52,556 nucleotides of DNA from Mogibacterium sp. (GTDB lineage Bacteria > Bacillota > Clostridia > Peptostreptococcales > Anaerovoracaceae): assembly GCA_017505405.1 (NCBI GenBank), contig JAFVPI010000091.1, positions 1 through 52,556 of the forward strand, read 5' to 3'. The translations under genes were made by a program, and so were the position numbers. The notes beneath the pieces were generated by a model, which saw only the letters and a list, made by a program, of their open reading frames with translations, made no database searches and was not told the DNA's origin. Shown piece by piece: positions 6,000 through 51,774 of this stretch (within the stretch, counting starts at the first letter, position 1; each line of letters opens with the position of its first letter).

Positions 6000-7202
6000 T
6001 CAACGGTTTGATACAATAATGTTGCTGACAGAATAACTCAGGCTGGTTCTCTGTCCTTCGCGGATGAAACGCGAGCTGATACGTTGTGATACTACGGAGC
6101 AATCCTCTTCAGTAGTGTTTATCAGCAGCACCAGATACTGGCCTTTTCCGTATCTGGTAACGGTGTCTGTGTGTCTCACGCTTTCTATAATCGTGGTTCT
6201 CAGTCTTTCGGAAAGCTCTTCGAGACGGCGTCCCTCACGCATCGGATTGCCCTTGCCGTCAAGTATCGTGCAGAGCATCAGGAATATCTTTTCTCCTGAT
6301 CTCTCCATCATACGCTCGGTCATCCTGTATATCTCCTGGAACACAGGAAGCGAGCAGTAGTATCCTTTACGGTCATAATCATCAGGATTGCCTATCTTAT
6401 TCTGTATCTCTTCGAGAGATTCATGCCCTACAACGAGCTTAAGACCTATCCTGTTTATGAACTCTCTCACATAACTGTTTGCACGCCCGCCGTACTCATT
6501 GACATACATATCGACAGTCTTCCTGTAAAAGCTTTCGGTCTTGTCGAATTTTCCCAGTCTTCCGAGCGCTTCCAGAGTCAGGATCTCCCACTCTGAGAAA
6601 GGATCCACCTTGCTGGCATATGTGCTCACATCAAGGAGCTGCTTATACTTATGTGTTTCTCTGAGAATATCAGTGAGCTCTGTGACGCATTCTGAAAAGA
6701 TCTCCCTGTATCTTTCCGCTTCCTGGGCGCTCCATACACTCGACTCGTTTCCGGCAAGGAACCTGCCGGAGTACATATAGCAGGCATCCGTAAGCAGATT
6801 GGCCTTCTGTTCATCGTTTCCGCACTCTATGGCCCTGTTGAAAGCTTCCTCAAACTCCGCTGCGTCTTCTATTACCTGTATATCATCGCACCAGAAATAA
6901 ACGCCGCCCCTTTTGACAACGTACTGGCTTTCAGGAAGACCAAGCGCCTTGAGTTTCTTGCGCAGGTTGTAGATGATGTTCCTTATCGAATGTGATACGT
7001 CATCGACATCACGGTCTCCGAATAATGCAGCTTTGGCCAGGTCTCTCGACAGGCCCTGTTTGCGGTAATGGAGCAGCAGCTGCAGAAGCTGCACCATCTG
7101 GGACTCGCTCTGATTTCCGAAGGAGAGTTCGGAACCTTTATATCTGATTGAAAAGCCTCCGAACGTCCTTACATTGATCATGTGTTTTTCATTGCCGCTC
7201 AT
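6000..7202 (-). CDS. BTAD/SARP-type transcriptional regulator with a degenerate GGDEF-like C-terminus
   Basis: A 400-residue cytoplasmic regulator. Residues 8-105 form an OmpR-type winged helix, starting with the typical INVRTFGGFSI strand pair and including the SIRNIIYNLRKKLKALGLP recognition region. Residues 110-255 are a helical bacterial transcriptional activation (BTAD) domain of the TPR type. Residues about 285-400 match the fold pattern of a GGDEF domain: the HTDTVTRYGKGQYLVLL stretch (344-360) sits where Rx-GGDEF would be, but the signature reads GKGQY, so no cyclase activity is expected. It lies 13 bases after pilT and 42 before the Hpt gene, inside the operon. It probably regulates the pilus or signalling genes. 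Whether the GGDEF-like tail binds a nucleotide cannot be told. Confidence 0.85.
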   Translation of the reverse strand: MSGNEKHMINVRTFGGFSIRYKGSELSFGNQSESQMVQLLQLLLHYRKQGLSRDLAKAALFGDRDVDDVSHSIRNIIYNLRKKLKALGLPESQYVVKRGGVYFWCDDIQVIEDAAEFEEAFNRAIECGNDEQKANLLTDACYMYSGRFLAGNESSVWSAQEAERYREIFSECVTELTDILRETHKYKQLLDVSTYASKVDPFSEWEILTLEALGRLGKFDKTESFYRKTVDMYVNEYGGRANSYVREFINRIGLKLVVGHESLEEIQNKIGNPDDYDRKGYYCSLPVFQEIYRMTERMMERSGEKIFLMLCTILDGKGNPMREGRRLEELSERLRTTIIESVRHTDTVTRYGKGQYLVLLINTTEEDCSVVSQRISSRFIREGQRTSLSYSVSNIIVSNR

Positions 7203-7215
7203 GGTACAGCACCTC

Positions 7216-8274
7216 CTATGCTCCTACTTTCTTCACCATGAACTCATAGTTGTTGCATGAAGAAAGAAGTGTATTTTTGGTGATCTTTCCCTGCCTGTAC
7301 AGATCAAGAAGGCTTGAATCCATGGTGACCATCCCGTCAGCTGCCGCAGCCTGCATCGCAGACTCGAGCTGGTGGAGCTTGCCTTCTCTTATCATGTTGC
7401 TGATCGCCGGAGTCGATTTCATTACCTCGAATACCGGTATCAGATGTCCGTCAGCAGAGGTAACGAGCTGCTGGCATACAACGCCCTTTATCAGCTGCGC
7501 AAGCTGTCCCCTTACCTGGACCTGCTGATTTGCCGGGAAAACATCCACTATCCTGTTTATGGTGTTTGCCGCGCTTGATGTATGCAGGGTGCTGAACAGC
7601 AGCACTCCCGTTTCAGCTGCGGTTATCGCAGATGAAATAGTGTCAAAGTCCCTCATTTCGCCGAGGAGGATCACATCAGGGCTCTCTCTGAGAGCAGATC
7701 TGAGTGACTCAAGGTATCCCGGTGTATCTATAAAGATCTCGCGCTGGCTGACGATGCTCTTTTTATGCGAATGCAGATACTCGAGAGGGTCCTCCATCGT
7801 GATTATATGAGCCTCGCGGGTCCTGTTGATCCTGTCTATCATGCACGCCAGAGTTGTTGATTTTCCAGAACCTGCAGCTCCGGTAACAAGCACCAGCCCT
7901 GTATTGTTGTCAGCAAGCGAGAGAACGTTCTCGGGAATACCCAGGAGAGCAGGATCAGGCACTCCGAATTTTATGACCCTTATGACAGCCGCAAGCGATC
8001 CTCTCTGTCTGAACACATTGACCCTGAATCTTCCGAGGTCCCTGATCGAGAACGAGAAGTCGTCATCATTGTTCATATCCAGATTTGTTTTGGCGCGCCG
8101 CCCTGTCTCATAGATCTCATCGATCACCGCATTGATGGCATCAGGCTTCATGATGTTGTCACCATGCCTGTCCTGCGTTCCCTTGATCTTATAAGTCACA
8201 GGAATGCCTGCAATGATGAAAATGTCAGATGCCCCTTTCTGTATCGCTGCTGTCAGTATTTCATTGAGATTCAT
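7216..8274 (-). CDS. pilT: PilT-family type IV pilus ATPase
   Basis: A hexameric secretion ATPase of 352 residues, a usual length for PilT. Visible motifs are Walker A TGAAGSGKST (131-140), the Asp box around IITMEDPLEYLH (158-169), Walker B VILLGEMRD (201-209) with catalytic E206, and the His box STLHTSSA (228-235). Near the C-terminus, ISNMIREGKLHQ (291-302) matches the PilT retraction signature. Classical PilT drives pilus retraction in the cytoplasm at the base of the machine. No PilB-type extension ATPase, prepilin peptidase or PilM/N/O gene is in the operon. Either these lie elsewhere or this ATPase also powers assembly. It sits 28 bases after the last pilin-like gene. Confidence 0.92.
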   Translation of the reverse strand: MNLNEILTAAIQKGASDIFIIAGIPVTYKIKGTQDRHGDNIMKPDAINAVIDEIYETGRRAKTNLDMNNDDDFSFSIRDLGRFRVNVFRQRGSLAAVIRVIKFGVPDPALLGIPENVLSLADNNTGLVLVTGAAGSGKSTTLACMIDRINRTREAHIITMEDPLEYLHSHKKSIVSQREIFIDTPGYLESLRSALRESPDVILLGEMRDFDTISSAITAAETGVLLFSTLHTSSAANTINRIVDVFPANQQVQVRGQLAQLIKGVVCQQLVTSADGHLIPVFEVMKSTPAISNMIREGKLHQLESAMQAAAADGMVTMDSSLLDLYRQGKITKNTLLSSCNNYEFMVKKVGA

Positions 8275-24947: not shown

Positions 24948-25427
24948 TTATAGTTCATATACAGCAATGATCTCATTACCACACATTTCTGAAGTCTCTG
25001 CAAAGCCATACTTCAGATATATATCCCTTGCCCTGGTGTTTTCAGGTTCATAGGACAGCCATACTTTTTTTGCCTCTCCAAAAGGGAATGTGCGGATCAG
25101 AGCAATGACAGCATCCATTGTCTGCTTTCCTAAACCTTGCTTCTGATATTTCTTATCTATCATCAGTCTCCAGAGGCTGTAGTTTTCTTTGATCAAATCA
25201 CTCTCGTCCGGGTTGCCCACAGTTCCCTTTCCGATCATAATAAACCCGATGAGATCGTCATCATTATATACTGCCAGAGGTAATGCGTTATTGCCTTCGT
25301 TTCTGGTAGCATATGCTTCAGCAAGACTCTGTATGTTTTCTGCAACAAAATCCCTTTGCTCTTCAAAAGGCTCTAGAGCACATACCTTCCAGATATTCTT
25401 ATTTGTAATTTCTTCAAACCTGATCAT
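24948..25427 (-). CDS. GNAT-family N-acetyltransferase, polyamine acetyltransferase-like
   Basis: A 159-residue acetyl-CoA-dependent transferase. The fold's motif A appears as LMIDKKYQKQGLGKQTMDAV, with the Q-K-Q-G-L-G-K pyrophosphate-binding turn, followed by KVWLSYEPENTRARDIYLKYGF. The LSYEPEN-x-A-x-x-x-Y-x-x-x-GF pattern is shared with spermine/spermidine and diamine N-acetyltransferases of Firmicutes (BltD/PaiA-like). The substrate is therefore plausibly a polyamine but is not proven. AAAGGAAC lies ten bases before the ATG. It is a single-gene unit in the minus direction. Confidence 0.85.
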   Translation of the reverse strand: MIRFEEITNKNIWKVCALEPFEEQRDFVAENIQSLAEAYATRNEGNNALPLAVYNDDDLIGFIMIGKGTVGNPDESDLIKENYSLWRLMIDKKYQKQGLGKQTMDAVIALIRTFPFGEAKKVWLSYEPENTRARDIYLKYGFAETSEMCGNEIIAVYEL

Positions 25428-40460: not shown

Positions 40461-41954
40461 TTAATCCCTCCGGAACAGGTCACGGGTGTAGACCTTTTCT
40501 TCCACGTCGTCCAGTACGGTATCATAGCGGTTCGCGATAATGCAGCCGCACATCTTCTTGAATTTTTTCAGGTCGTTGACCACAGCGGACCCGAAGAATG
40601 TCGTGCCGTCTTCCAGTGACGGCTCATAGATCACCATAGTCGCACCTTTGGCCTTGATCCTCTTCATAACACCCTGGATAGAGGACTGGCGGAAATTATC
40701 GGAATTTGATTTCATGGAAAGGCGGTACACGCCGACCACAACTTCCTTCTGCTGGTTTTCTCTCGCCTTGGAGTAAGCTTCGCTGTTCCCGTACGTTCCG
40801 GCGATCTCCAGTACACGGTCTGCAATGAAGTCTTTCCTCGTGCGGTTGCTCTCCACGATCGCATGGATCAGGTTCTGCGGTACGTCCTGATAATTTGCCA
40901 GAAGCTGTTTAGTGTCTTTCGGCAAACAGTATCCGCCATAGCCGAAGGAAGGATTGTTGTAGTAATCGCCCACGCGGGGATCCAGACAGACACCCTTAAT
41001 GATCGGAGCAGTCTTGAGGTGCTTCACTTCAGCATAGGTGTCCAGCTCATTGAAGTAAGACACACGGAGGGCAAGATAGGTATTCACAAACAGTTTAGTG
41101 GCTTCTGCCTCCGTTGTCTCCATGAACAGCACCGGTATGGACGTCTTGATGGCTCCCTGCCGGAGCATCGCAGCAAACTCCTCTGCCGGTTTCTTATTTC
41201 CCTCATCTGCCCCAACAATAATTCTGCTCGGATACAAGTTGTCATATAGTGCCTTGGATTCCCGCAGGAACTCCGGGCTGAAAATGATGTTGTCCATACC
41301 CATCTTCTCCCGGACGTGTACAGTATATCCGACAGGGACCGTGGACTTGATAACGATGGCAGGCCTGACCTCCCGCTCTGCAGTTGCTTCTTTGATCAAA
41401 GCAAGCACTGACTCGACCGCGCTGCAGTCAAAGAAGTTTGTCTTCGGGTCGTAATTTGTCGGTGCTGCCACAATGATGAAATCAGCATCAGCATAAGCAG
41501 CAGCTGCATCGGTGGTAGCACGAAGTGACAGCTTACGCTCCCTGTGCTCTGCCATGTACTTCTCAATATACTCGTCCTGAATGGGGCTCTTCCGGCTGTT
41601 GATCATCTCGACTTTCTCCGGAACGATATCCACAGCAGTTACGTCATTGTGCTGAGACAGTAAAACTGCCAGGGATAGTCCAACGTACCCGGTACCGGCT
41701 ACAGCAATCTTTTTCCGCCCAACCAAAACCGGTTCAGCTTCATCATCTACGATGACATCAGAGGGTTGGAAGTCAAGCACGGAAGATAATGACAGCAGCT
41801 GATCTACAGACGGGCTGTAATCCTGAGCCTCAAGGCGGGATATAATAGAACGGTTAATATTGGTTTTCTCAGACAAAGCAGCCTGGGACAGCTTCATGCT
41901 CTTTCTACGGCTTGTTACGGTTTCGGCCAGTAGTTTCAAAGATAAATGCTTCAT
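40461..41954 (-). CDS. XRE-type HTH fused to UDP-glucose 6-dehydrogenase
   Basis: A 497-residue fusion. Residues 8-66 form a Cro/CI-type helix-turn-helix ([20 protein letters not shown] then SIISRLEAQ). Residues 80-497 are a complete nucleotide-sugar dehydrogenase: NAD-binding GTGYVG (87-92), [19 protein letters not shown], and catalytic C343 in [14 protein letters not shown]. The enzyme would oxidise UDP-glucose to UDP-glucuronate in two steps. The ATG at 41954 follows TGGAGC; an in-frame extension to 42065 lies over the promoter and is rejected. It is the first gene of the cluster, and a candidate operator lies just upstream, so the protein may regulate its own operon in response to NAD or UDP-glucose. 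The fusion is plainly visible; the regulatory role is inferred. Confidence 0.93.
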
Positions 41955-42013
41955 CGGAAGTGCTCCATTTCTGTTGCTATTAGTGACAATTATCTTTCTC
42001 ATGTAACAAAGTA

Positions 42014-42042
42014 ATTTTATCTTATATTGAAAAGGAAGCCAA
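42014..42042 (-). promoter_or_regulatory. Main promoter of the polysaccharide cluster
   Basis: TTGGCT (42037-42042) and TAAAAT (42014-42019) lie 17 bases apart on the minus strand, about 60 bases before the dehydrogenase start. The -35 box and spacing are the same as in the internal promoter at 39318-39346, which suggests shared control. Confidence 0.65.
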
Positions 42043-42061
42043 TATGAACGTTGCAAATAGG

Positions 42062-42105
42062 ACATAAATATCTGTTATGCAAGGCCAATAATCTTCTATT
42101 TATGT
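42062..42105. promoter_or_regulatory. Inverted repeat upstream of the cluster promoter, candidate operator
   Basis: ACATAAATA (42062-42070) and TATTTATGT (42097-42105) are perfect 9-base inverted copies separated by 26 bases, starting 20 bases upstream of the -35 box. A TTGCAA motif lies beside each arm. The spacing suits two dimers on the same DNA face or a looped site. The XRE domain encoded by the next gene is an obvious candidate binder. Confidence 0.4.
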
Positions 42106-42168: not shown

Positions 42169-42192
42169 AAAAAAAGATGCCTTCCGGCATCT
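42169..42192 (-). terminator. Terminator next to repeat copy 1
   Basis: AGATGCC pairs with GGCATCT around TTCC and is followed by seven T on the minus strand. It lies 11 bases beyond the CCA-like end of repeat copy 1 and ends transcripts from the sigma/anti-sigma pair. Confidence 0.82.
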
Positions 42193-42203
42193 CATTTTTA
42201 ATA

Positions 42204-42308
42204 TGGTGGAGCACAGGGGGATCGAATCGCGACGCTCAGCCTGCAAGCCTTGAAAAGAGAGGAGGCCGCACGCCATCAACTTTTCATCTAATCACCTATC
42301 TAATCACG
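42204..42308 (-). repeat. tRNA/tmRNA 3'-end-like repeat, copy 1 (class 1)
   Basis: On the minus strand this ~105-base unit reads: two spaced TTAGAT arm motifs, GATGGCGTGC, a CCTCCTCTCTTTTCAAGG block, a GCTT/AAGC hairpin, then TTCGATCCCCCT, GTGCTCC and ACCA. The last part has the shape of a tRNA T-loop, T-stem 3' strand, acceptor 3' strand, discriminator A and CCA. The partner 5' strand of the T-stem is missing. It shares all but a few bases with copy 4. It starts 29 bases after the anti-sigma stop codon. Confidence 0.85.
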
Positions 42309-42337
42309 TTACACTTAATATCATGTAATTTGATGCT

Positions 42338-43087
42338 CTATTCCTTTGACCACACAAGTGTTGCTTCATCTTCGATCCCGGAGATCAGTTTATCCATTTC
42401 TTCCTGCATCTGCTCTTCATTCAGGCTTCTGCTCTGGGAGTATATATGGTCAAATATGGTTCTGCCCGCGGAAAAGAATCCATCGAGTCTGTTTTCCTTC
42501 ACATATTTTTCCGGAAGGTAATACACCTTGTCTACTGCATCTGCATCTTCAGTTTCATGGAATCTCATCACATGCTTCTCGTTGATATCAGATACCTTTT
42601 CCCAGTTTCTGGAATAGTAACTGCTTGTGAGGAAGAATACTGCAATACGGTTTCCTTCGCCGTCCTTCCCCCAATACACTCCTTTATAGCCGTAATAAGG
42701 CTTCTCAACATACATATCCCCATTCTCTGTCATACGGATCCCTGTATCATTGTAAGGAATGTAGTCTGGATTATGAAAGACAAGAATATCTCCCGCAATA
42801 ATGATCAGGATGACTACGGCAGCAGTAGCTGCTATCGTTACGATCCTTTTGAGCAGCATTTTTCTTTTGAGCCGTTTGAGCCGCTCGGCCTCATCAAGTC
42901 TGCTGAGAACTTCTTCAGCCTCTGCATCAGCGTCAGGAATCTCTGAACCATGCATTCTGCGGTAGTATTCTCTGCATCCTTCGCAGCCTGTCAGGTGCTC
43001 TTCAACTGCTGCTTTGCTCTCTTCTGACAGCGCATCATCTATATAAAGCGGCATCAGGTCTTTTGCTATATTACAATGAATCTTCAT
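42338..43087 (-). CDS. Anti-sigma factor with zinc-finger-like N-terminus
   Basis: A 249-residue membrane protein. Residues 5-40 carry the H-x3-C-x2-C zinc anti-sigma signature in EEHLTGCEGCREYY, plus an earlier Cys at 5. A charged linker leads to one membrane helix (about 82-105). The outer 140 residues are rich in Tyr and strands with no known motif. The gene overlaps the ECF sigma gene by 17 bases, the usual arrangement for a sigma/anti-sigma pair. It should hold the sigma factor inactive until an envelope signal arrives. The pair forms one of the modules bounded by the tRNA-end-like repeats. Confidence 0.9.
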   Translation of the reverse strand: MKIHCNIAKDLMPLYIDDALSEESKAAVEEHLTGCEGCREYYRRMHGSEIPDADAEAEEVLSRLDEAERLKRLKRKMLLKRIVTIAATAAVVILIIIAGDILVFHNPDYIPYNDTGIRMTENGDMYVEKPYYGYKGVYWGKDGEGNRIAVFFLTSSYYSRNWEKVSDINEKHVMRFHETEDADAVDKVYYLPEKYVKENRLDGFFSAGRTIFDHIYSQSRSLNEEQMQEEMDKLISGIEDEATLVWSKE

Positions 43088-43583
43088 CGAGTTCCTCCTT
43101 GATCATCATGCGCGAACGGTAGTAGGTGACTCTCGCCCAGCTTTCGCTCTTACCGAACAGCTCTCCTATCTCTGCGAAACTCAGGTCTCCGAATGTCCTG
43201 AGCTGGAAGACTTCTTTGTACGGCTCTTTCAGGTCGTGCAAAATGCGGTGGATCTTCATCGCTGTTTGTTTTCTCAGAAGCTGCTCCTCCGGATCGCTTT
43301 CACTCCCCGCCGGAAGCTCATAATCATCTGATTCATCGTCATCATGCTTTGTCAGCGCTAATGTCTTCGACTGTCTCTTCAAGGAGTCAAAACTTAGATT
43401 CCTCGCTATCTGGCACAGCCAGACTTTCAGTGATGCTTCACCACGGTAGTCATTGATCTTCTTCAGTGCTCTGAAGAATGTCTCCTGCGTAATTTCCTCA
43501 GCCATGTCAGGATCATGTACCAATGAAAGAGTGTAACGGTACACCGGTGTGAAATATTCCCGATACAGCTTTTCAATATCCAT
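43071..43583 (-). CDS. ECF-family RNA polymerase sigma factor
   Basis: A 170-residue sigma-70 family protein with only regions 2 and 4. Region 2 shows LYREYFTPVYRYTLSLVHDP, EEITQETFFRAL and VWLCQIARNLSFDSLKR. An acidic linker (about 80-100) leads to region 4 with LKEPYKEVFQLRTFGDLSF and AEIGELFGKSESWARVTYYR. The ATG at 43583 is preferred because CAGGAG is eight bases ahead; the ATG two codons earlier is too close. It is co-encoded with its anti-sigma factor. Its targets are unknown; no matching GAAC-type promoter was recognised in the window. Confidence 0.92.
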   Translation of the reverse strand: MDIEKLYREYFTPVYRYTLSLVHDPDMAEEITQETFFRALKKINDYRGEASLKVWLCQIARNLSFDSLKRQSKTLALTKHDDDESDDYELPAGSESDPEEQLLRKQTAMKIHRILHDLKEPYKEVFQLRTFGDLSFAEIGELFGKSESWARVTYYRSRMMIKEELDEDSL

Positions 43584-43710
43584 CAGCATTCTCCTGTTTA
43601 AGTCTTCTACTTATATGACTCGCAAACCCTCAATTCGTTACAAGCTTTTTCAAATTCACGTATAAAACTATAATACCTAATCACATCTAAACCAATGTCA
43701 AAATAATAGA

Positions 43711-43730
43711 CCCATTGATTTTTAAACGGG
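43711..43730 (-). terminator. Hairpin next to repeat copy 2
   Basis: The minus strand reads CCCGTT-N8-AATGGG followed by an AT-rich run. One pair is G-U, which is allowed only in RNA made from the minus strand; on the plus strand the same position is an A-C mismatch. It lies five bases beyond the CCA-like end of copy 2. Confidence 0.5.
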
Positions 43731-43735
43731 GCTGG

Positions 43736-43838
43736 TGGTGGAGCGTAGGGGGATCGAATTTGCATGTTATCACTGAACACGTTGAAATGAAAGGAGGACA
43801 GCACGCCATCTTTTTTCATCTAATCACTCATCTAATCT
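43736..43838 (-). repeat. tRNA/tmRNA 3'-end-like repeat, copy 2 (class 2)
   Basis: Same plan as copy 1: spaced TTAGAT arms, GATGGCGTGC, a CCTCCT block, a hairpin (CGTGTT/AACATG), then TTCGATCCCCCT, ACGCTCC and ACCA. The central 50 bases belong to a different class, which is identical to copy 3 over about 75 bases. It begins 12 bases after the AraC-type regulator stop codon. Short open frames across it, including one at 43607-43819, are not genes. Confidence 0.87.
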
Positions 43839-43850
43839 GGATGTAGTAAT

Positions 43851-44741
43851 TCATTTTCGTTTACTGCGGAATTCGCGCGGTGTCATTCCGAAAGTTCTGC
43901 GAAACTGCAGATTGAAGTAAGAAATATTATCAAAGCCATGGATCATAGCGATCTCAGAAACAGATTTGGTAGTTTCCTCAAGTGCGTGAGCTGCTTTCTG
44001 AATGCGATAATGATTGACATATTGAATGCAGCTCATTCCTACGTATTGGCGAAAGAGACTCATAAAATAATTCTCACTGAATCCTGCAAGCTGTGCCATC
44101 TCTGAAATACTGAGCTTCTCACTATAATGGTCAGTGATATACTCAAGCGCAGACTTTATGTGCCGACGGTTCTCAGAGGTTATATGACTGTCATCTGACT
44201 CTCTTATATAGCCGTATGAGAAGAGAAGGATCAGGATATGCAGCAGTTTTTCTTTCAATAGCATCTCATAAAACGGCTGTTTGTTTTTAAAGCAGTCAAG
44301 TGCTCTTATAAAAGTATCTTTGATTTCCGCATAACCTTCATCACCATCTCTGATAACTTCCTGCATCAATAACTGCCCTTCCGCCATTGGCCTGAGATAC
44401 TTAGACGCAGAAAGGTCCTGATTATTTGCACCTAAATAATCAGGGTGGAACACCATACTGTCTGATATCATCGTCTTTCCCGGGATCTCACATGCCGAAT
44501 GAGTACAGTACGGCGGTATCAGTATGATGTCTCCGGCATTTGCTTCAAACACTTTCTGTCCGACCTTGTAGTCTGAAGTTCCATCCTGTATCAAAGTGAT
44601 CTCCATTTCCTCGTGCCAGTGCAGCGCAAGTTCTCTATATGTAAAAGGGATCAGACAATGATAACTGTTTACAGGAAGAAAAATATCACCATGCCTCGCT
44701 TTTTCTTTGTTGGTTTTCAGAGTGTTTTCTTTTTTCATCAT
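43851..44741 (-). CDS. AraC-family transcriptional regulator with cupin sensor domain
   Basis: A 296-residue regulator. Residues 20-110 match an AraC-type cupin sugar-sensing domain (HWHEEMEITLIQDGTSDY, GDIILIPPYCTHS). Residues 195-295 contain two helix-turn-helix units, with KLSISEMAQLAGFSENYFMS and SVSEIAMIHGFDNISYFNLQ, ending in the family signature FRRTFGMTPREFR. It is divergent from the GH13 glucosidase gene 155 bases away and probably activates it when an alpha-glucoside is present. No good ribosome site is visible before the ATG pair. It lies inside the module bounded by class 2 repeats. Confidence 0.92.
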   Translation of the reverse strand: MMKKENTLKTNKEKARHGDIFLPVNSYHCLIPFTYRELALHWHEEMEITLIQDGTSDYKVGQKVFEANAGDIILIPPYCTHSACEIPGKTMISDSMVFHPDYLGANNQDLSASKYLRPMAEGQLLMQEVIRDGDEGYAEIKDTFIRALDCFKNKQPFYEMLLKEKLLHILILLFSYGYIRESDDSHITSENRRHIKSALEYITDHYSEKLSISEMAQLAGFSENYFMSLFRQYVGMSCIQYVNHYRIQKAAHALEETTKSVSEIAMIHGFDNISYFNLQFRRTFGMTPREFRSKRK

Positions 44742-44752
44742 TTGATTATTCG

Positions 44753-44790
44753 TAGTTTTCTGTTAGTTTATAGCCTTATTTTGATAGTTT
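44753..44790. promoter_or_regulatory. Phased TAGTTT repeats between the AraC regulator and the glucosidase gene
   Basis: Three TAGTTT motifs start at 44753, 44764 and 44785, spaced by 11 and 21 bases, so all face the same side of the helix. The last is part of ATAGT-N8-ACTAT. Such phased direct repeats are usual for AraC-family binding sites. The rest of the 155-base gap is AT-rich with no unambiguous promoter hexamers. Confidence 0.38.
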
Positions 44791-44896
44791 TTAACACTAT
44801 TATTGTTGTATTTTATCATTATATTAAACATAGCTCAACAGAAGCACTATAGCAGAAAAAAGAATTGAATAAACAATTACAGGGAGGACAACGCAA

Positions 44897-46477
44897 ATGG
44901 CAGCAGAGTGGTTAAAGGATACAGTTTTTTATGAGATATACCCGCAGTCTTTCAAAGATTCGAATGGTGATGGTATCGGCGATATAAATGGGATAATCCA
45001 GAAACTGGACTATATCAGAAGTCTTGGGTGCAATGCACTCTGGATCAATCCTTGTTATGACTCTCCATTCAGTGATGCCGGTTATGATGTGCGCGATTAC
45101 AAAAAAGTAGCACCGCGATATGGCACCAACGAGGACCTTTACCGCCTTTTTGATGAAGCTCATAGGAAAGGGATCCGTGTACTGCTGGATCTGGTACCTG
45201 GCCACACATCGGAGGAACATCCATGGTTCCGTGAAAGCCAGAAGGCTGAGAAAAATGAATATAGCGACCGCTTTATCTGGACGGATTTCTGCTTTCAGGC
45301 AGCGGACGGTTTCCCATATATAGGAGGAGAAAGCGAGCGAAGCGGCTGCTATATTCTGAACTTCTTTAAATGTCAGCCTGCTCTTAATTACGGTTTCTAC
45401 AAAACCACTGAGCCATGGCAAAAGAGTTTTCGTGACGCTTCCGCTATCGCTACCCGGGAGGCTATTAAAGATGTAATGCGATTCTGGCTCTTACACGGAT
45501 GCGACGGATTCCGCGTGGATATGGCTGCCTCTCTGGTGAAAAATGATGATGAAAAGAAGAGCGGGACCAGCGAGATATGGCACGATATCCGCCGTATGCT
45601 CGATCTGGAATTCCCGGATGCAGCAATGGTATCGGAGTGGAATGATCCGTCTCTCGCACTGCGTGCTGGTTTTGATATGGATTTTTATCTTAACGAACCG
45701 AGCGGTGGCTACTCTACCCTGATGCGTGATTACTACAATAACGGAGGAGATGTTAAAGGCGATCGGAACAATGAAGATCACAGTTATTTCAGGAAAGACG
45801 CCGGTGGAAATATCAACCGTTTTCTGGGGCAATATCTTGAGCGCTATGAGGATACAAAGAATCTTGGATATATCTCATTACTGACATGTAATCACGACAC
45901 TATCCGTCCGAGCTTCAGCCTTGACAGCACAGAGCTAAAGCTGGCTTACGCATTCCTTTTTACAATGCCGGGTGTACCATTCCTGTACTATGGTGACGAA
46001 ATCGGCATGAAATACCTCGAAATACCAACTAAGGAAGGTGGTTACTTCCGTACCGGATCGAGAACGCCGATGCAGTGGGATAGAAGTGTTAATCTGGGAT
46101 TCTCTGAGGCATATGAAGCAGATCTTTATCTTCCTGTTGATGACTCTGAAAGTGCACCGACGGTAGAATCACAGGAAAGCGACCCTGACTCGCTGCTGAA
46201 TACTGTGCGTGCAGTTATCGCACTTCGCCATCAGGAGCAGGACCTGCAGGCAGATGCCCCGCTTCAGATAGTTTGCAGCGGAGCAGGTCAACCTTTCATC
46301 TACCGGAGAGGTTCGCTCTTTTGCATCGTAAATCCTGAAGGCAAAATACACGAGATTTCACTTCCTCTCGATGTGACAAAGCTTATCCATGGGAAAACCT
46401 TATTCTCAATAGGTGATGTCTCTGTTAAAAACGGGATAATAAGTACCGGAGCACAGTCATTCGCAGTAATTAAATGA
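44897..46477 (+). CDS. GH13 alpha-glucosidase (oligo-1,6-glucosidase-like)
   Basis: A 526-residue cytoplasmic glycoside hydrolase. The start VFYEIYPQSFKDSNGDGIGD (10-29) includes the Asp/Gly calcium loop typical of the alpha-glucosidase, isomaltase and trehalose-6-phosphate hydrolase group. Catalytic residues are D208 in GFRVDMA, E247 in VSEWND and D334 in TCNHDT. The region TPMQWD and the C-terminal beta domain are also present. Instead of the HxSDEH loop it has GHTSEEHPWF. GGGAGG is 10 bases before the ATG. Controlled by the divergent AraC regulator, it should hydrolyse imported alpha-glucosides. No transporter gene accompanies it. Confidence 0.92.
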   Translation: MAAEWLKDTVFYEIYPQSFKDSNGDGIGDINGIIQKLDYIRSLGCNALWINPCYDSPFSDAGYDVRDYKKVAPRYGTNEDLYRLFDEAHRKGIRVLLDLVPGHTSEEHPWFRESQKAEKNEYSDRFIWTDFCFQAADGFPYIGGESERSGCYILNFFKCQPALNYGFYKTTEPWQKSFRDASAIATREAIKDVMRFWLLHGCDGFRVDMAASLVKNDDEKKSGTSEIWHDIRRMLDLEFPDAAMVSEWNDPSLALRAGFDMDFYLNEPSGGYSTLMRDYYNNGGDVKGDRNNEDHSYFRKDAGGNINRFLGQYLERYEDTKNLGYISLLTCNHDTIRPSFSLDSTELKLAYAFLFTMPGVPFLYYGDEIGMKYLEIPTKEGGYFRTGSRTPMQWDRSVNLGFSEAYEADLYLPVDDSESAPTVESQESDPDSLLNTVRAVIALRHQEQDLQADAPLQIVCSGAGQPFIYRRGSLFCIVNPEGKIHEISLPLDVTKLIHGKTLFSIGDVSVKNGIISTGAQSFAVIK

Positions 46478-46534
46478 TTCGATTATTCATAAGAAAACTT
46501 CGATCCAATCACATCTAACCACCGCCAAAAGAGT

Positions 46535-46559
46535 AGACCCGTTGATTTTCAACGGGTCT
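46535..46559 (-). terminator. Hairpin next to repeat copy 3
   Basis: AGACCCGTTGA and TCAACGGGTCT form a perfect 11-base stem around a three-base loop, two bases beyond the CCA-like end of copy 3 on the minus strand. The T-run after it is weak (CTACTCTTTT). On the plus strand it lies 58 bases after the glucosidase stop and could also stop that transcript. Confidence 0.6.
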
Positions 46560-46561
46560 GG

Positions 46562-46665
46562 TGGTGGAGCGTAGGGGGATCGAATTTGCATGTTATCACT
46601 GAACACGTTGAAATGAAAGGAGGACAGCACGCCATCTCTTTTCATCCAACCACTCATCCAACCAC
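46562..46665 (-). repeat. tRNA/tmRNA 3'-end-like repeat, copy 3 (class 2)
   Basis: Identical to copy 2 from the CCA-like end through GATGGCGTGC, about 75 bases. The arm motifs differ: TTGGATGA here and TTAGATGA in copy 2. Outside the hairpin, on the other side, further arm-like motifs (GGTTAGATG, GATTGGATC on the minus strand) occur at 46505-46524, so the unit is flanked by arms on both sides. Copies 2 and 3 enclose the AraC-glucosidase pair. Confidence 0.87.
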
Positions 46666-47076
46666 TTAGCATCAAACAAGTGCTATTTGATATGCCCTTT
46701 TACACAGTTGACGAAGCATCATGTCTGTAGATAGCGTACGGGGGCTGTTATTTCTACGCACACCCCTAACCGGCTGTAGAAAATCCCGCTTTTAAGCCTG
46801 TAAAATTTGTAAAGGATAATATTATTACCTGATGATTTTTCGTCTCTTAAATCGAGGATTTCAGCAAGTTCGAAAAAATGAGCCCAGTAATTTCAAGGCT
46901 TTCAGCCCCTTCTATTTCACCTTTTTTTGGTTATATCCCCTCATTTTTTGTGGTTCCAAAGAATGCCCGGATCTGCCTTGATTTGGTCGATCATCTTCTC
47001 CGTCAGGAACGTTATCATCCACAGATAAGAGGAGAAGAATGTCAGAGAAACCAAAACGGAATAAAGTTTGAAAACC
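46666..47076. other. Gene-free region with a possible decayed coding tail
   Basis: About 410 bases without a supported gene. On the minus strand, 46941-47060 reads an open frame ending in FLTEKMIDQIKADPGILWNH, then two lysines and a stop, with good codon flow but no start signal. It could be the C-terminal tail of a lost gene and is not recognised. Near 46735-46770 there is a GCGTA...GGGG / TACGC...CCCC arrangement that may be another worn repeat or an element end. Nothing else is recognisable. Confidence 0.3.
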
Positions 47077-47109
47077 TAAAAAAAGTTCCGCCTCTTTAGA
47101 GAGGCGGAA
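47077..47109 (-). terminator. Rho-independent terminator after the repeat-rich secreted protein gene
   Basis: TTCCGCCTCT pairs with AGAGGCGGAA around TTAG, followed by seven T (after AC) on the minus strand. It lies 30 bases after the stop codon of the gene at 47139-48935. Confidence 0.85.
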
Positions 47110-47138
47110 AAATGTTACTTTTTTATTTTAATGCAGAA

Positions 47139-48935
47139 TTATTCTCCCCAGAACTGATATGTATCTGGATTGAAAGTAATATCACTTGGATTGACTATAT
47201 TTGTGTCGGAAGGCGGACAAGCTTTGTAATAGTAATCATCAGCAGCAGAATATGCACACATATGATATTGAGTCCATTCTGGAGTGCCTATTTTATATTT
47301 GGTGAAAAGGTTTTCTAACGGATAACCTAAATCATTGCCGAAATCTACAAGTGCTGCTGGCGAACCAGCTGAATCTATTTCTTTTCTTACCCAGTACGGA
47401 ATTCCTTCATTTTTAAATATAAGAACATATTGTCCTCTGTAAGTAGGCAGATATTTAAAGTTTGTGAGAATGTATCCACATATTGCTTGCATTTTTTCTT
47501 GGTTTGTCATTGAATTTGTACAAACATTCTGAATAACCCGCTGGCGCCATGCAATTTCTTCAGCTTTGTAATCCTTTACGGTCACCGTGCGTGAAGCGAC
47601 TATTATTCTAACGTTTGTTGCCCTGTCGACTTCTTCTACATTGAATGTTAGCTGTCCTGCTTCGGTTGGTCCAAGTATTACCGGAATGCCATTACCAACA
47701 TAAAATTCATCTTCGTCTGTGAACTGTACATCTGCATAATCTGAAGGTATTCCTATTACATTCGCTGTAACGTTTTTTCCACTTGCATTCGTAGCATTAG
47801 CTACCATACTCAAGGGATCTGGATTGTTTGTTTCAATATAAATTACACTTTTACCACCGTTTCCATACGGCTCATTAATAAACTTGATATTATAGTTATA
47901 CTTCGATTTTGGCGTGTACTCTGCAGTGTATGTAGCATTACGTGTTGCTGCAACTATTGACGGACTCCATCCCTTGAATGTGTAAGTGAAGGAGTCGTCT
48001 GGGCGAGTTGGTGTTCCGCCATATGAAGGAGTTGTGCCCTCCTGAACGGTAGTTGTCTTTAAAATCGAACCATCCCAGTTCTTCCAGGTGATAGTGATTG
48101 AGGTATCCGCAGGCGTATTGTCCTGCGAAGCATCCGCAGGTGTATTGTCCTTCGGTGTGTCCGCTGGTGTATTGTCCTTCGGAGTGTCTGCAGGTGTATT
48201 GTCCTTCGGTGTATCCACAGGTGTACTGTCCTTCGGTGTATCCGCAGGCGTATTATTCTTCTGAGTGTCTGCAGGTGTATTGTCCTTCGGTGTATCCGCA
48301 GGCGTATTGTTCTGCGAAGTATCAGAAGGTGTATTGTTCTTCGGAGTATCCGCAGGTGTATTGCTCTTCGGAGTGTCCGCTGGCGTATTATTCTTCTGAG
48401 TGTCTGCAGGTGTATTGTCCTTCGGAGTGTCCGCTGGCGTATTGTCCTGCGAAGTATCAGAAGGTGTATTGTTCTTCGGACCTTCGGTCTGTATTCTCAC
48501 AGTGTTGGATTTCTTCTTGTATGTATATACTGCTTCTTTCCTGCTCTTGCCGCGGTACTTCTTTGCAGGCTTTTTCTTCTGCCACTTTTCGGTCTTCTTG
48601 TTGAACCACATTTTGACAGTCTTTTTTGTATAGGTTTTTATCTGGTATGTGTGCGCAGTACCGGATGCGAGGCCCTGGTCAGTAAATGCTGTTTTCTTTG
48701 TATTCAGATGAGCTATAGCCTCTCCGTCTCTGAAGACAGCATACCCCTTGCCCGGACTTTTGATCTTGTTCCATGCAAGTTTAGCCTCGGTCTGTCCCGA
48801 TGCCGCTGCCTGAAGTGTTATGTTCTTTGGCAGTTTTTTCTTTGCCAGAGCATCAGCCTCGGCAGTTCCTGTCATGAACGGCAGCCCGGAAAAGATCATC
48901 GCTGCAGTTATGATTATAGTTAGTATTCTTTTCAT
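47139..48935 (-). CDS. Secreted protein with 9-residue repeats and a degenerate transglutaminase-like domain
   Basis: A 598-residue exported protein. A signal peptide covers about 1-27. Residues 35-105 resemble a fibronectin type III domain (AKLAWNKIKSPGKGYAVFRD). A Lys-rich segment is followed by 13 full 9-residue repeats plus a partial one (156-279, consensus NTPADTPKD), probably a cell-wall spacer. Residues 280-342 match a Listeria/Bacteroides-type Flg_new (InlB B-like) repeat, with the pattern W-x-N-W-D-G and FKGWSP. The C-terminal 140 residues follow a transglutaminase-like start (NQEKMQAICGYILTNFKYLP), but the catalytic Cys position reads SPAALVDFG. A His remains (H558), so enzymatic activity is doubtful. 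It has no sortase motif. It lies between repeat copies 3 and 4. Confidence 0.85.
   Translation of the reverse strand: MKRILTIIITAAMIFSGLPFMTGTAEADALAKKKLPKNITLQAAASGQTEAKLAWNKIKSPGKGYAVFRDGEAIAHLNTKKTAFTDQGLASGTAHTYQIKTYTKKTVKMWFNKKTEKWQKKKPAKKYRGKSRKEAVYTYKKKSNTVRIQTEGPKNNTPSDTSQDNTPADTPKDNTPADTQKNNTPADTPKSNTPADTPKNNTPSDTSQNNTPADTPKDNTPADTQKNNTPADTPKDSTPVDTPKDNTPADTPKDNTPADTPKDNTPADASQDNTPADTSITITWKNWDGSILKTTTVQEGTTPSYGGTPTRPDDSFTYTFKGWSPSIVAATRNATYTAEYTPKSKYNYNIKFINEPYGNGGKSVIYIETNNPDPLSMVANATNASGKNVTANVIGIPSDYADVQFTDEDEFYVGNGIPVILGPTEAGQLTFNVEEVDRATNVRIIVASRTVTVKDYKAEEIAWRQRVIQNVCTNSMTNQEKMQAICGYILTNFKYLPTYRGQYVLIFKNEGIPYWVRKEIDSAGSPAALVDFGNDLGYPLENLFTKYKIGTPEWTQYHMCAYSAADDYYYKACPPSDTNIVNPSDITFNPDTYQFWGE
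48099..48470 (-). repeat. 27-bp in-frame tandem repeat array
   Basis: Thirteen full 27-base units and one partial unit encode a 9-residue Asn-Thr-Pro-rich repeat in the secreted protein. Units vary by point changes and fall into higher-order groups: SQD/SQN variants recur about every five units. This suggests expansion by unequal exchange. Copy number is likely to differ between strains. Confidence 0.9.
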
Positions 48936-48955
48936 GACTTGTGATCACTCCTTTA

Positions 48956-49162
48956 TTATTGATGACCGAATGATTCGAATATCCAGTGCGCATCATAATC
49001 TATCCTGAATACTATGTAATCAGGATCATTCTTATCAGGCTCTGAAGTGATAGAGCCTTTAGTATTTGCTGTTATATGTATGTTACCATTGTTATCATGT
49101 GCCTTTCCAATAGGATGACAATGGCAGGCCATAATCTGATCGAGACTGAACGTACGATTCAT
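48956..49162 (-). CDS. Possible small protein of unknown function (68 aa)
   Basis: A 68-codon frame just upstream of the repeat-rich secreted protein gene, with a gap of 20 bases. It ends with DPDYIVFRIDYDAHWIFESF, which reads like a folded domain edge, and contains a CHCHPIGKAH cluster. There is no signal peptide and no clear ribosome site before the ATG, and a stop lies two codons upstream. It may be a genuine small gene co-transcribed with its neighbour or the tail of a lost one. No family is recognised. Confidence 0.4.
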   Translation of the reverse strand: MNRTFSLDQIMACHCHPIGKAHDNNGNIHITANTKGSITSEPDKNDPDYIVFRIDYDAHWIFESFGHQ

Positions 49163-49499
49163 GGATCATACATAACAGGCAGAGCATTTTGACTCCTACT
49201 GCCAAAACACAGCCTTGGTGTCAGGACCCCAAACCCCGTCAAAAAGTAATGTCAGCACATCGTTTTTTGCAAATAAAATGTGTCGGTCGACATATATATC
49301 CTTTTACAAAAATAGTTTCAAAAAAGCTGGTCTTGACAAGGGTTTTTGACCTAAAACAGCCCGTAAAGCGAACCCTCCAGTCTGTATTCTGACCTCGGTA
49401 AGTCTATAAACAAATACTGTGATGAGCTCGGTATACCCAGAAGGAGTCTGCACAAGACAAGGAAGACCTGCGCATCCAACCAATGCTAAACTACAGACG
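49163..49499. other. Region without a supported gene
   Basis: About 340 bases. A minus-strand open frame crosses it but continues straight through the repeat unit, so it is not credible. AT-rich palindromic sequence occurs near 49280-49300 (TGTCGGTCGACATATATAT). A further arm-like motif (CATCCAACCAATGC) lies at 49473-49486. The sequence may be the worn end of a mobile element; nothing definite is seen. Confidence 0.3.
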
Positions 49500-49533
49500 C
49501 CCTCAAAACATTGAAATTTCAATACTTTGAGGG
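49500..49533 (-). terminator. Hairpin next to the degenerate repeat
   Basis: CCCTCAAA...TTTGAGGG with an inner ATTGAAATTTCAAT palindrome. The two internal mismatches on the plus strand (A-C and C-A) are G-U pairs on the minus strand, so the fold is intact only in minus-strand RNA. No T-run follows. Confidence 0.45.
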
Positions 49534-49583
49534 TGTCGTGCGTAGGGGCAAAAATCCAATCACATCCAACCAAATCCAACCAC
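49532..49583 (-). repeat. Degenerate tRNA-end-like repeat with arm motifs
   Basis: On the minus strand three GGTTGGAT-type motifs are followed by CCCCTACGCACGACACC, a worn form of the CCCCCTACGCTCCACCA core found in copies 1-4, and then by the hairpin at 49500-49533. The central 60 bases of the full repeat are absent. It directly adjoins copy 4, so two units lie in tandem here. Confidence 0.55.
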
Positions 49584-49596
49584 TTCAAAAACTTAA

Positions 49597-49622
49597 AAAA
49601 CCGTTGAAATTTCAACGGTTTT
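49597..49622 (-). terminator. Terminator next to repeat copy 4
   Basis: A perfect 26-base palindrome (AAAACCGTTGAAA and its complement) followed by TTTTTTAAG on the minus strand, two bases beyond the CCA-like end of copy 4. It is a strong intrinsic terminator for minus-strand transcripts coming from 49865-50200. Confidence 0.8.
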
Positions 49623-49624
49623 AA

Positions 49625-49729
49625 TGGTGGAGCGTAGGGGGATCGAATCGCGACGCTTAGCCTGCAAGCCTTGAAAAGAGAGGAGGTCGCACGCCATCTG
49701 CTTTTCATCTAACCACCCATCTAACCACC
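49625..49729 (-). repeat. tRNA/tmRNA 3'-end-like repeat, copy 4 (class 1)
   Basis: Class 1 unit nearly identical to copy 1: spaced GGTTAGATG arms, GATGGCGTGC, the CCTCCTCTCTTTTCAAGG block, a GCTT/AAGC hairpin, then TTCGATCCCCCT, ACGCTCC and ACCA. The differences from copy 1 are a handful of substitutions, including ACGCTCC against GTGCTCC. Copies 1 and 4 are the outer pair of the array, and class 2 copies are the inner pair. Confidence 0.87.
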
Positions 49730-49864
49730 TAATAACTGTATACATAATTGGTTCGAGATTTTAAACGTACTGACTTTTAAGAAAAGACAATCTTTTTCCA
49801 TGTTTTAGCAATCTCTTTATAATGAATAATGTGTTCTATAAGCATTAATATACAGGCTTGATCC

Positions 49865-50310: not shown

Positions 50311-51774
50311 TTACTCCACAACAAGCTTAATCGTTGTCTCCTCTGGATCCTGATACTCCGCACACATCAAAGTGATCTTTGCTTCATACTCTCCCTTGCA
50401 AAACGGGACAACATATGCACCAGTGAAATAATCAGACTTTGTATGAACTATTCCCTGTGTTTGTCCAATTTCAACAATATTGTCCTCAATCTCAATATAT
50501 GAATAAATAGTATTTCCATTTCTAAATGGAGAGTACGCTATTGGTGATATATAGGAAGAATTATTGATGCCTCCCCAATCACTAAATAGCGGAATGTTCA
50601 ATGCATGCGATCTTTCTTGGTTTAACCTCTTATATGCCTCATTAATAGGATTCTTTGGTAGCTTTGGTGCTTCAGGCTTGGGCATTCCTATAATGTCATC
50701 TAAATCGAACACCCTTACAGCATCCGGGAATTCTATTGTTACGCTAACATCTGTCGCCTTTGAAGTTCCCAGATTATTTACAAATATAGTTATTGGAACT
50801 CCATTTTCCATAATCCTGAGGTAAGTAATATAACTCTGCAAGTATTTCTCTACCTCATCTTTAGAAGGTAGCTCTGCATTGTAATTCTTTATATCCAGCT
50901 CATTGATTCGATTTTTTATATCAGGTGGGATATCACGCCAAGAGATCGGCAAGAATTTTGACATTTCTTTCTCTGTTGATATCGTTTTCTGTTTAAGATG
51001 AACAACCCCATCCTCTTCTATTAGAATAATTTCATCACGGTTATAGAAATCCTGATGTTCATCATCGTCTGCCTTTGTTGATGCAAGCGTTATATCCAGG
51101 TTTGGTCTTCTATCATAGGCTCCTCTACATTTCTCCAATGCAATAGATAGCCTTTTATTCTCTTCCTGAAGGCCTCGGTTCTGGCGACTCAATTCTACGA
51201 TCTCAGATAAGCTTTTTTCTATATCTACTGAATCACTTCTGATCCACCCTGGCCGCTTTCCCCTATCTATCTCTTTATGCAACGAAAGAGATACCTCCTT
51301 GCCAAGTTCTTCAGTACTGCTGAACCACTTAACTTCACGCCCTTTGGTAACATCATCTTTAAACGTTTGGAGTTTCTTAACTTTTTCTGGATCAGTGTCA
51401 ACATTATTTGCAGTTATTACTTCATCTTTTTTTATATATGCGAGAATAGGAAGCCCAATACGCTTAGCATAACGATATTCCTTTTCCGTATAACTCATGC
51501 CGGCATCGGGACCGTCCTCAATCACAGATCCATATCTTTTACCAATGATAAGGATATAATAATCTGACGAATCAATGGTTTCTTTAATAATCTCCCATTG
51601 CTCTTCATTAGCAGCACTGAACATTTCCATTCCTATTGGAAACTGATACATAGAAAGAATAGTGTCTCGCACCTGCTCTCGTTCATTGATTAAATCTTTG
51701 TATGTGGATGATATGAAAACTTGATACTTCTTATCCATTTCCCTAAAAATAGCGCTTTTCCTCTTAAGCTTCAT
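50311..51774 (-). CDS. DUF4062 domain protein
   Basis: A 487-residue protein. The N-terminal ~110 residues match DUF4062: KYQVFISSTYKDLINEREQV (16-35), IGMEMFSAANEEQWEIIKE, YYILIIGKRYGS and GMSYTEKEYRYA. This is a small alpha/beta domain often joined to ATPase or signalling modules in bacteria. A short coiled coil (about 195-215) follows. The C-terminal 250 residues are strand-rich and not recognised; the NNLGTSKATDVSVTIEFPD stretch looks like an immunoglobulin-like domain. An ATG 12 codons downstream is an alternative start, but the site before it is too close. It belongs to the AT-rich right-hand segment and may be part of a defence system. Confidence 0.78.
   Translation of the reverse strand: MKLKRKSAIFREMDKKYQVFISSTYKDLINEREQVRDTILSMYQFPIGMEMFSAANEEQWEIIKETIDSSDYYILIIGKRYGSVIEDGPDAGMSYTEKEYRYAKRIGLPILAYIKKDEVITANNVDTDPEKVKKLQTFKDDVTKGREVKWFSSTEELGKEVSLSLHKEIDRGKRPGWIRSDSVDIEKSLSEIVELSRQNRGLQEENKRLSIALEKCRGAYDRRPNLDITLASTKADDDEHQDFYNRDEIILIEEDGVVHLKQKTISTEKEMSKFLPISWRDIPPDIKNRINELDIKNYNAELPSKDEVEKYLQSYITYLRIMENGVPITIFVNNLGTSKATDVSVTIEFPDAVRVFDLDDIIGMPKPEAPKLPKNPINEAYKRLNQERSHALNIPLFSDWGGINNSSYISPIAYSPFRNGNTIYSYIEIEDNIVEIGQTQGIVHTKSDYFTGAYVVPFCKGEYEAKITLMCAEYQDPEETTIKLVVE

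Follow-up and report, generated by a model that had tools for sequence, protein, structure and literature searches.

The 3' end of an alanine transfer RNA (tRNA-Ala) gene recurs as the core of four repeat units of about 105 bp in contig JAFVPI010000091.1 of Mogibacterium sp. (assembly GCA_017505405.1), a stretch of 52,556 nucleotides that was analysed at full length and is called the window here. The best overall explanation is a probable one: the units would be halves of attachment (att) sites of integrative elements specific for tRNA-Ala, which have accreted into an array, and the small cassettes between the units would be moved by integrases resident in the same genome. The two parts of this explanation differ in strength. 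The att-site and accretion part is highly probable, and for cassette movement in trans the chances are about even.

In the proposed course of events, an element would insert at the 3' end of the tRNA-Ala gene, and its own copy of the last ~23 nt would rebuild the tRNA. After the rebuilt tRNA would come a hairpin and P' arm sites, both brought in by the element, and the native terminator would be shifted to the distal end. There it would stand behind a second core with P arms at its side, which together make up the 105-bp unit. Repeated insertion would give a tandem array, of which the window may be the distal part, most simply of the array at tRNA-Ala(CGC). The three small cassettes in a row would have kept their attachment ends and their cargo (one operon or a divergent pair) and lost genes for integrase, replication and mobilisation. 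Co-resident integrases of the family, one of them an intact cognate on contig C49, might recognise the arms of the cassettes and excise or insert them alone or together with a neighbour.

The repeat units and the origin of their core

Genomes, contigs and loci are labelled G, C and L; the source genome (2.3 Mb) is G000 and the window contig is C77. A repeat comparison of the window gave four 105-nt copies starting at 42203, 43735, 46561 and 49624, and the remaining three are 66, 65 and 91% identical to copy 1. A unit profile, partly circular in that it was built from six copies (the four of the window and two from contig C22), matched the four at E values of 4.5e-30 to 1.9e-33, with no further match in the window better than E 1.3. 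Both results bear out an earlier note on this DNA, which had described four such units with a tRNA-type 3' end on the minus strand: all of them end there in TTCGATCCCCCT, followed by ACG (GTG in copy 1) and CTCCACCA. The note was also right that they are not working tRNAs, as ARAGORN finds neither a tRNA nor a transfer-messenger RNA (tmRNA) in the window, and that each is followed by an intrinsic hairpin, which a terminator scan lists directly 3' of 4/4 cores (14 hairpins in the region, with 6.3 expected in shuffles). All 14 occurrences of the heptamer TTRGATG in the window are on the minus strand, 11 of them within 42285-49724. The earlier account of flanking TTAGATG/TTGGATG arms needs correction in two copies: copy 1 has no arm repeats beyond the core, and the outer arms of copy 2 are degenerate.

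Searching the genome with the pattern TTCGATCCCCCTNNNCTCCACCA (at most 2 mismatches) gave five matches, namely the four units and C49:28888-28910. The latter is the end of an intact tRNA-Ala(CGC) gene (G000:C49:28835-28910), and its 23-nt end is identical to that of the units. The earlier suggestion of a tRNA or tmRNA end is thus settled in favour of the tRNA. The tmRNA of the genome, on C58, does not carry the core and was rejected as its source; tRNA-Ala(CGC) is the one place in the genome besides the window where the 23-nt core occurs. Downstream of this tRNA, a hairpin and then three TTAGATG-type arms 10-11 bp apart were found, and a gene for a 452-aa tyrosine recombinase, 90 bp from the tRNA, converges on it (Phage_integrase, 2.8e-14). 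The protein contains GLRRGE, HKTR and GHKD...Y, presumably the usual boxes of tyrosine recombinases, and is intact; the next gene encodes an AAA_25 protein. An intact tRNA with this 3' end and a tyrosine recombinase beside another copy, both proposed earlier as tests of the att-site idea, are hence present in the same genome. The integrase would recombine the cores, with the arms as its predicted binding sites, and would act on the cassettes of the window as well.

The genome has no second close integrase: the next best is 37% identical and lies beside a tRNA-Ser, and remnants occur on C22 and in the window only. The 37% relative (L100, G000:C102, 5396-6640) adjoins tRNA-Ser(CGA) at 6753-6844 and is perhaps a second tRNA-targeted element of this genome. 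A second target of the tRNA-Ala family, tRNA-Ala(GGC), lies at the extreme end of contig C70.

The repeats have the identity of a tRNA-Ala end, and tRNA and array are contiguous in relatives; here they are on two contigs, C49 and C77, which may form one locus. Unit 1 is followed by GAGATGCCGGAAGGCATC, and this flank aligns with the flank of tRNA-Ala(CGC) in G028 (score 57) and G040 (score 63), where the best of 300 shuffles reached 25 and 24. Among flanks of unit junctions, those of G026 and G029:C19 scored 242 and 48 against it, and the next best core flank in the set scored 26. From these alignments, the hairpin after unit 1 is read as the native tRNA terminator moved to the far end of the array. 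In G040 (L170, C34) and G028 (L204, C95), a piece of ~170 bp with the native terminator and GC-rich hairpins follows tRNA-Ala(CGC); past it, a second core and a module with P' arms form a mini-interval without P arms.

In G023, a tRNA-Ala(CGC) without arms and without integrase was found, and the segment 384-1734 bp downstream of it is 90% identical to the flank beyond an element in G038, where it lies 2.6 kb further out. The empty sites anticipated in the earlier note are thus seen as a bare tRNA in G023 and as modules located elsewhere in relatives; no clean empty site flanked as the window is was found, the alignment with G028 and G040 being confined to the first ~75 bp. In relatives, the dehydrogenase gene that follows the array was also checked for a tRNA directly upstream, and none occurs in 20 loci (the window's included) with flanks of up to 1.5 kb.

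The element family in related genomes

A 186-bp query was matched in 48 of 119 genomes, the source genome included. Within the genus, a set of 47 congeneric draft genomes, one per species, was used; 30 of them have the exact core pattern, and none has it reversed. A pattern relaxed a little yielded 93 cores, classified as 28 tRNA-Ala(CGC), 25 tRNA-Ala(GGC), 38 units in 19 of the 47 genomes, and 2 others. Two isoacceptors are therefore targets, with the cores TTCGATCCCCCTACGCTCC and TTCGAGCCTCGTACGCTCC. Outside these 93, the profile search added two fragments and one unit whose core is mutated (G030:C5).

Fifteen cores have a full integrase next to them. In four cases (G003, G016, G026 and G044) another core follows 9.8-13.1 kb on, and it is a unit in 4/4; in the other 11 the stretch ends at 1.5-11.9 kb without a core. 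As judged from this arrangement, the ~105-bp units are the right ends of a family of tRNA-Ala integrative elements. The earlier proposal of tyrosine-recombinase att sites that use a tRNA 3' end is thereby largely supported by the tRNA on C49, its arms, its integrase and the right ends of the family. Two of the full elements (G026 and G016) carry relaxases (Mob_Pre, MobA/MobL).

Between a core and the next unit on the same contig, 21 intervals could be delimited: 4 with a full integrase, 3 with an integrase fragment at the start and 14 in which tblastn with the type-A integrase gave none within 2.5 kb of the left core. The latter measure 808-7836 bp, and one of them (G023) holds an integrase fragment further in. 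Comparison of the genomes thus identifies the core with the tRNA-Ala end, the units with right ends of integrase-bearing elements, and intervals without integrase in many genomes.

Two main interiors occur among the 38 units (35 distinct). One comes with TTAGATG arms and mostly CCCCCT cores; in the other, TTGGATG arms prevail and the core can be of either kind. Unit 2 of the window, G000:C22:9582 and G016 depart from this, and a unit of G021 shows no arms. Arm type was also tallied against integrase type at the 22 cores that have an integrase, whole or fragmentary, no more than 250 bp away. All 12 rows with type-A integrases (67-100% identity, two partial genes) have mainly TTAG arms, and 4/4 rows with full-length type-B integrases, a type grouped by DNA identity, have TTGG arms only (G003:C2, G022, G026:32015 and G035:C14). 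Three integrases at tRNA-Ala(GGC), with 55-62% identity, go with mainly TTAG arms, a distant one (30%) with a single TTGG and the two remnants of G000 with TTGG.

The cassettes of the window and their cargo

The window is read as a tandem array in the order element, unit 4, secreted protein, unit 3, AraC regulator with amylase-family enzyme, unit 2, sigma/anti-sigma pair and unit 1, followed by the chromosome. The units, their hairpins and all arms are on the minus strand, and the hairpins after all four cores are those of the terminator scan. Unit 4 (49625..49731; arms GTGGTTAGATG, twice) would be the right end, P arms and core, of an element towards the contig end, with a DUF4062 gene at 50311..51774 (minus strand); its core at 49625..49647 is identical to the last 23 nt of tRNA-Ala(CGC), and a terminator-like hairpin lies at 49597..49622. 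Unit 3 (46562..46668; arms GTGGTTGGATG, twice; hairpin 46535..46559) would end cassette 3. Unit 2 (43736..43842) would end cassette 2, the AraC-amylase cassette; its TTAGATG arms (GATTAGATG, twice) are joined to an interior elsewhere paired with TTGGATG arms, and the hairpin 3' of its core (43711..43730) is degenerate. Unit 1 (42204..42310; core TTCGATCCCCCTGTGCTCCACCA), the right end of the sigma cassette, is read as the chromosomal junction (attR), and the hairpin GAGATGCCGGAAGGCATCTT 3' of its core (42174..42193) is like the one directly after tRNA-Ala(CGC) in G028 and G040. The first gene past the array (40461..42065, minus strand) encodes a protein with helix-turn-helix and UDP-glucose/GDP-mannose dehydrogenase domains, and in G026 the same unit-1 junction adjoins this dehydrogenase gene (94% DNA identity over 8 kb).

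Each of the three cassettes is bounded by two cores and has P arms on its right; on the left, the P' arms are clear in cassettes 3 and 2 and degenerate in cassette 1. Cassette 3 carries, at 47139..48935 (minus strand), the gene of a 598-aa protein whose secretion was predicted by eye from the N-terminus and for which no Pfam match was obtained at E 0.001; tandem repeats of 27 bp lie inside the gene at 48022-48533. Its P' arms (49554..49583, GTGGTTGGATTTGGTTGGATGTGATTGGAT) are of type B. Its left end, 175 bp at 49473-49647, matches that of an intact type-B element in G003 (96.6% identity), and after it comes a remnant of an integrase gene of 34 codons (49376..49477, plus strand; 102 bp, 96% to the type-B integrase), which includes the HKTR box and stops before GHKD...Y. 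A second remnant of 171 bp (49210..49380) is 86% identical to the interior of the G003 type-B element (L090:6843-7014). Since the type-B left end, the 34 integrase codons and the 171-bp remnant are present, and TTGG arms stand at both its left and right ends, cassette 3 appears to be a deletion derivative. The earlier statement that no recombinase is present thus holds for a working gene and overlooks this remnant.

Cassette 2 carries an AraC regulator (43851-44741, minus strand) and an alpha-amylase-family glycosidase (44897-46477, plus strand), together 43851..46477, with P' arms at 46503..46522. At its left end, the 82 bp from core to arms (46503-46584) match, at 96% identity, the type-A left end of the element beside tRNA-Ala(CGC) on C49, and the 3' end of the amylase gene lies 25 bp beyond them. 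Cassette 1 (cargo 42338..43589, minus strand) consists of a sigma factor gene (43071-43589) and a zinc-finger anti-sigma gene (42338-43087), with degenerate P' arms at 43675..43695. The Pfam matches of the cargo are to sigma-70 r2/r4, zf-HC2 (anti-sigma), AraC and alpha-amylase. Integrase genes are absent from the cassettes save for the 34-codon remnant, and the named cargo proteins have no relaxase domain in Pfam. The most fitting reading of the window's modules is that they derive from integrase-bearing elements by deletion. The ratio of nonsynonymous to synonymous substitution (dN/dS) between G000 and G044 was 0.08 for the amylase, 0.13 for AraC, and 0.10 each for sigma and anti-sigma, at a dS above 1 in two of the four genes (1.1 amylase, 1.6 anti-sigma).

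The same cassettes beside other neighbours

In G030:C28, the AraC-amylase cassette stands directly after tRNA-Ala(CGC), with identities of 98.6% (140 bp) and 95.8% (1394 bp). In G008 it comes after a RelB/YafQ toxin-antitoxin cassette of 808 bp, and the 746 bp available are 99.2% identical; in G044 it comes after a type-A element (81.8%). The sigma cassette follows directly on a type-B element in G003 (98.2%) and lies behind the 3' end of AraC in G030:C21, where the contig begins (94.6%); it is fused to another module in G024 (93.8%) and lies inside a type-A element in G044 (78.3%). The rpoB region is 84.7, 86.2, 88.9, 93.3 and 88.1% identical to that of G000 in G008, G030, G003, G024 and G044, respectively, so the cassettes of G008, G030 and G003 exceed the background. 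The order in G003 is type-B element, then sigma; in the window it is type-B derivative, AraC-amylase, then sigma, a difference of one cassette as a single gain or loss would give.

Elsewhere, a 1709-bp cassette is 99.8% identical between G013 and G024, where pdxK is 80.7% identical (no rpoB was found in G013). The right 1093 bp of this cassette are 99.7% identical in G023 (pdxK 81.8%). The toxin-antitoxin cassette of G008 reaches 91.5% in G029 and 94.3% in G044, with rpoB at 85.7 and 84.9%. By these comparisons, cassettes occur in different neighbourhoods, some with identity in excess of rpoB, and movement of single cassettes in trans by resident integrases may account for this. In G024 (L185, C3, ~7460-7510), two cassettes seem to be fused: the P' hairpin and arms of the second are kept, and the intervening core and P arms are gone.

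Alternative explanations and strength of the evidence

The cassettes might also be passive debris, an explanation with a substantial chance of being right, if clearly a less than even one. They would then be decayed elements of the cis-mobilizable element (CIME) type, mobile only in cis with an adjacent integrase element or not at all, and the varied neighbourhoods would arise when elements lying in between were excised later. The remnants of integrase genes in cassette 3 and on C22 fit this, as do the left arms that are missing or degenerate in many intervals, and a published three-step accretion model predicts such remnants (PMC5704250). The AraC-amylase cassette at the tRNA in G030 and the type-B element before sigma in G003 could both follow excision of an intervening element, and the AraC end and sigma are adjacent in both G000 and G030. 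However, the highest identity falls on single cassettes: the upstream neighbour in G008 shares only unit and hairpin with the window, that in G003 only the type-B remnants, which are not next to sigma in the window, and downstream the comparison is cut by contig ends in both genomes. The cargo is, moreover, under purifying selection. Homologous recombination or gene conversion between the 105-bp units, without any integrase, is an unlikely source of the shuffling. The units are alike over 100 bp, unit 2 is chimeric, the unit between AraC and sigma in G030 is of another type than in the window, and G023 has only the right 1093 bp of the 1709-bp cassette, all of which such exchange would explain; but tRNA and unit share only a stretch of ~23 bp, taken as too short for efficiency, the AraC-amylase cassette of G030 is flush with the core, and integrase elements with identical ends are present.

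That short reads were misjoined at repeats, in assembly or binning, is improbable to a still greater degree. Several contigs do stop at or near units (for example G026:C61, G026:C40 and G017:C139), and the relatives are uncultured draft assemblies, so misjoins at repeats are possible for any single array. Yet the joins recur in separate genomes: AraC end, unit and sigma in G000 and G030, the 1709-bp cassette in G013 and G024 and the junction of unit 1 and chromosome also in G026. Sites of the attC kind, which are recombined as folded single strands in integrons, would likewise come as an array of small cassettes with one repeat apiece, and can nevertheless be set aside with little hesitation: as single-stranded DNA the units fold no better than shuffles (z 1.0 and 0.7 for the strands of unit 3, -0.4 and -0.3 for the minus strand of units 4 and 1), and they match the ends of tRNA-site integrase elements instead. 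Equally hard to credit is that the units are untranslated tails or regulatory RNAs at gene ends without mobility. A terminator-like hairpin after each core would suit them, but the same end belongs to an intact tRNA, integrases lie next to the site, the neighbours of the cassettes vary, and no Rfam family matches in the window at gathering thresholds.

Several points weigh against att-site accretion with movement in trans, the explanation preferred here. Support for the putative mobility comes from sequence comparison across species. C49 and C77 are separate contigs, and the assemblies of 14 relatives comprise 11 metagenome-assembled genomes and 3 labelled 'uncultured ... isolate RUG'. No recent transfer is evident for the sigma cassette of G024 (93.8% against 93.3% for rpoB) or for the cassettes of G044 (82 and 78% against 88.1%, below background), and the AraC 3' end next to the sigma cassette in G000 and G030 fits joint transfer. 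Integrases were detected by tblastn with the type-A integrase, and the open reading frames of the intervals were not all scanned for other families. Left and right arm types match in 11 of 14 informative intervals, which is suggestive only and not significant (permutation p 0.064). Within 115 nt of the core, left arms are missing in 6/21 intervals and reduced to a single motif in 4/21, one of which (G029) has three motifs in a wider window; P arms are absent in one of the 38 units (G021) and single in a few.

A more far-reaching reading falls a little short of even odds. It supposes a tRNA-anchored system in which single-operon cassettes without integrase are individually mobile in trans, at two tRNA-Ala isoacceptors, through resident integrases of integrative and mobilizable elements (IMEs). 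The TTAGATG and TTGGATG arms would be codes read by different integrase lineages, and the system would extend genus-wide in gut Clostridia, integron-like without integron parts.

Relation to known mobile elements

CIMEs lack integration and transfer genes, keep their att sites and stand in tandem with integrase-bearing elements, for example at tRNA 3' ends, as outlined in the source on accretion of IMEs and integrative and conjugative elements (PMC5704250). The cassettes of the window resemble them in having kept att sites without such genes; they differ in being small (0.8-7.8 kb in the 14 intervals without left-end integrase), in lying several in a row and in having close copies next to different neighbours in other species. 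Islands specific for ssrA in Dehalococcoides are likewise in tandem and delimited by direct repeats of an RNA-gene 3' end, and 15 of 31 are given as lacking integration genes (PMC3146451). According to that account they use a serine recombinase and the tmRNA gene, in contrast to the tyrosine recombinase, two tRNA-Ala isoacceptors and arm repeats found here. Additive flexible genomic islands of marine and freshwater bacteria hold variable cassettes beside tRNAs with tRNA-end repeats, in one case starting at 330 bp and one gene (PMC10872708, PMC5217437, PMC7771536); they belong to other phyla and, in the portions of these reports relied on here, are described without arm-site anatomy or a matching integrase family. 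Tycheposons (4-200 kb) share the position beside a tRNA, the cargo and the tyrosine recombinase, which by the available description they contain (PMC10872708), whereas the cassettes of the window lack one of their own next to the tRNA.

Clusters of attC sites lacking integron integrases (CALINs; PMC11389934) and the dif modules of Acinetobacter, commonly toxin-antitoxin modules (PMC13141974), are also cargo-only and, in these sources, considered to depend for their movement on a tyrosine recombinase whose gene lies elsewhere; one cassette here is of the toxin-antitoxin kind as well. Their sites (attC, pdif) and recombinases (integron integrase, XerCD) are different, and the single-strand folding of attC is not a feature of the units, whose cores are tRNA-Ala ends. 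IMEs have their own integrase together with a relaxase or an origin of transfer (oriT). Two integrase-bearing members of the family (G026 and G016) encode Mob_Pre or MobA/MobL; the window cassettes do not, and have an integrase remnant only (oriT was not searched).

With CIMEs, ssrA islands and additive islands in print, the kind of arrangement is already known. New here are very small cassettes with conserved ends, their copies across species and the setting in Clostridia. No publication on tRNA-site integrase elements of Mogibacterium was found, and no wider claim of absence from print is made. If single cassettes do move, gut Clostridia would pass single operons between species without carrying an integrase along, such as those for sigma factors, sugar metabolism, toxin-antitoxin pairs and transporters. 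Uncultured genomes can readily be screened for such cassettes with the conserved 105-bp unit as a probe, and the way in which the att sites of satellites remain matched to their helper integrases can be tested on the two arm types.

Further observations

A GNAT acetyltransferase gene of the window (24948-25427) and the segment 26042-26201 resemble cargo at tRNA-Ala cores in G024, G033 and G044 (about 80-95%); given this, a hidden unit near 24.8 kb was looked for, and none was found there. In a sample of the family, 42 of 197 genomes match. Beyond the genus, almost every match consists of the 23-nt tRNA end, except in G065 (positions 14-90 of 107, 86%), G194 (1-62, 77%) and G249 (52-77). The first belongs to another genus of the family, and its locus (L240, G065:C43, 1501-1579) is unit-like over profile positions 18-97, without the CTCCACCA end. 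A phage or viral origin was considered and rejected: the P-arm pattern has no exact match in viral_contigs, and no relative of the integrase was confirmed there, the search covering close relatives only.

In four genomes (L092, L084, L094 and L115), a 66-bp piece beginning with TAGTCACAAGGAGGGGCCCATCTGTCC lies between core and hairpin. At L082 (14000-14037; G026:C15:32015), the core follows a stretch of ~46 nt resembling a tRNA 3' half, where ARAGORN calls no tRNA; P arms are absent, and a type-B integrase comes next. To the right of cores lacking TTRGATG arms, other short direct repeats were seen by eye in L085, L088, L082, L081, L083 and L164, namely GGAGCACA, GGCACTTTT with GTGCGGTACAA, and GTAGTTATTT, which are perhaps the arms of further integrase families.

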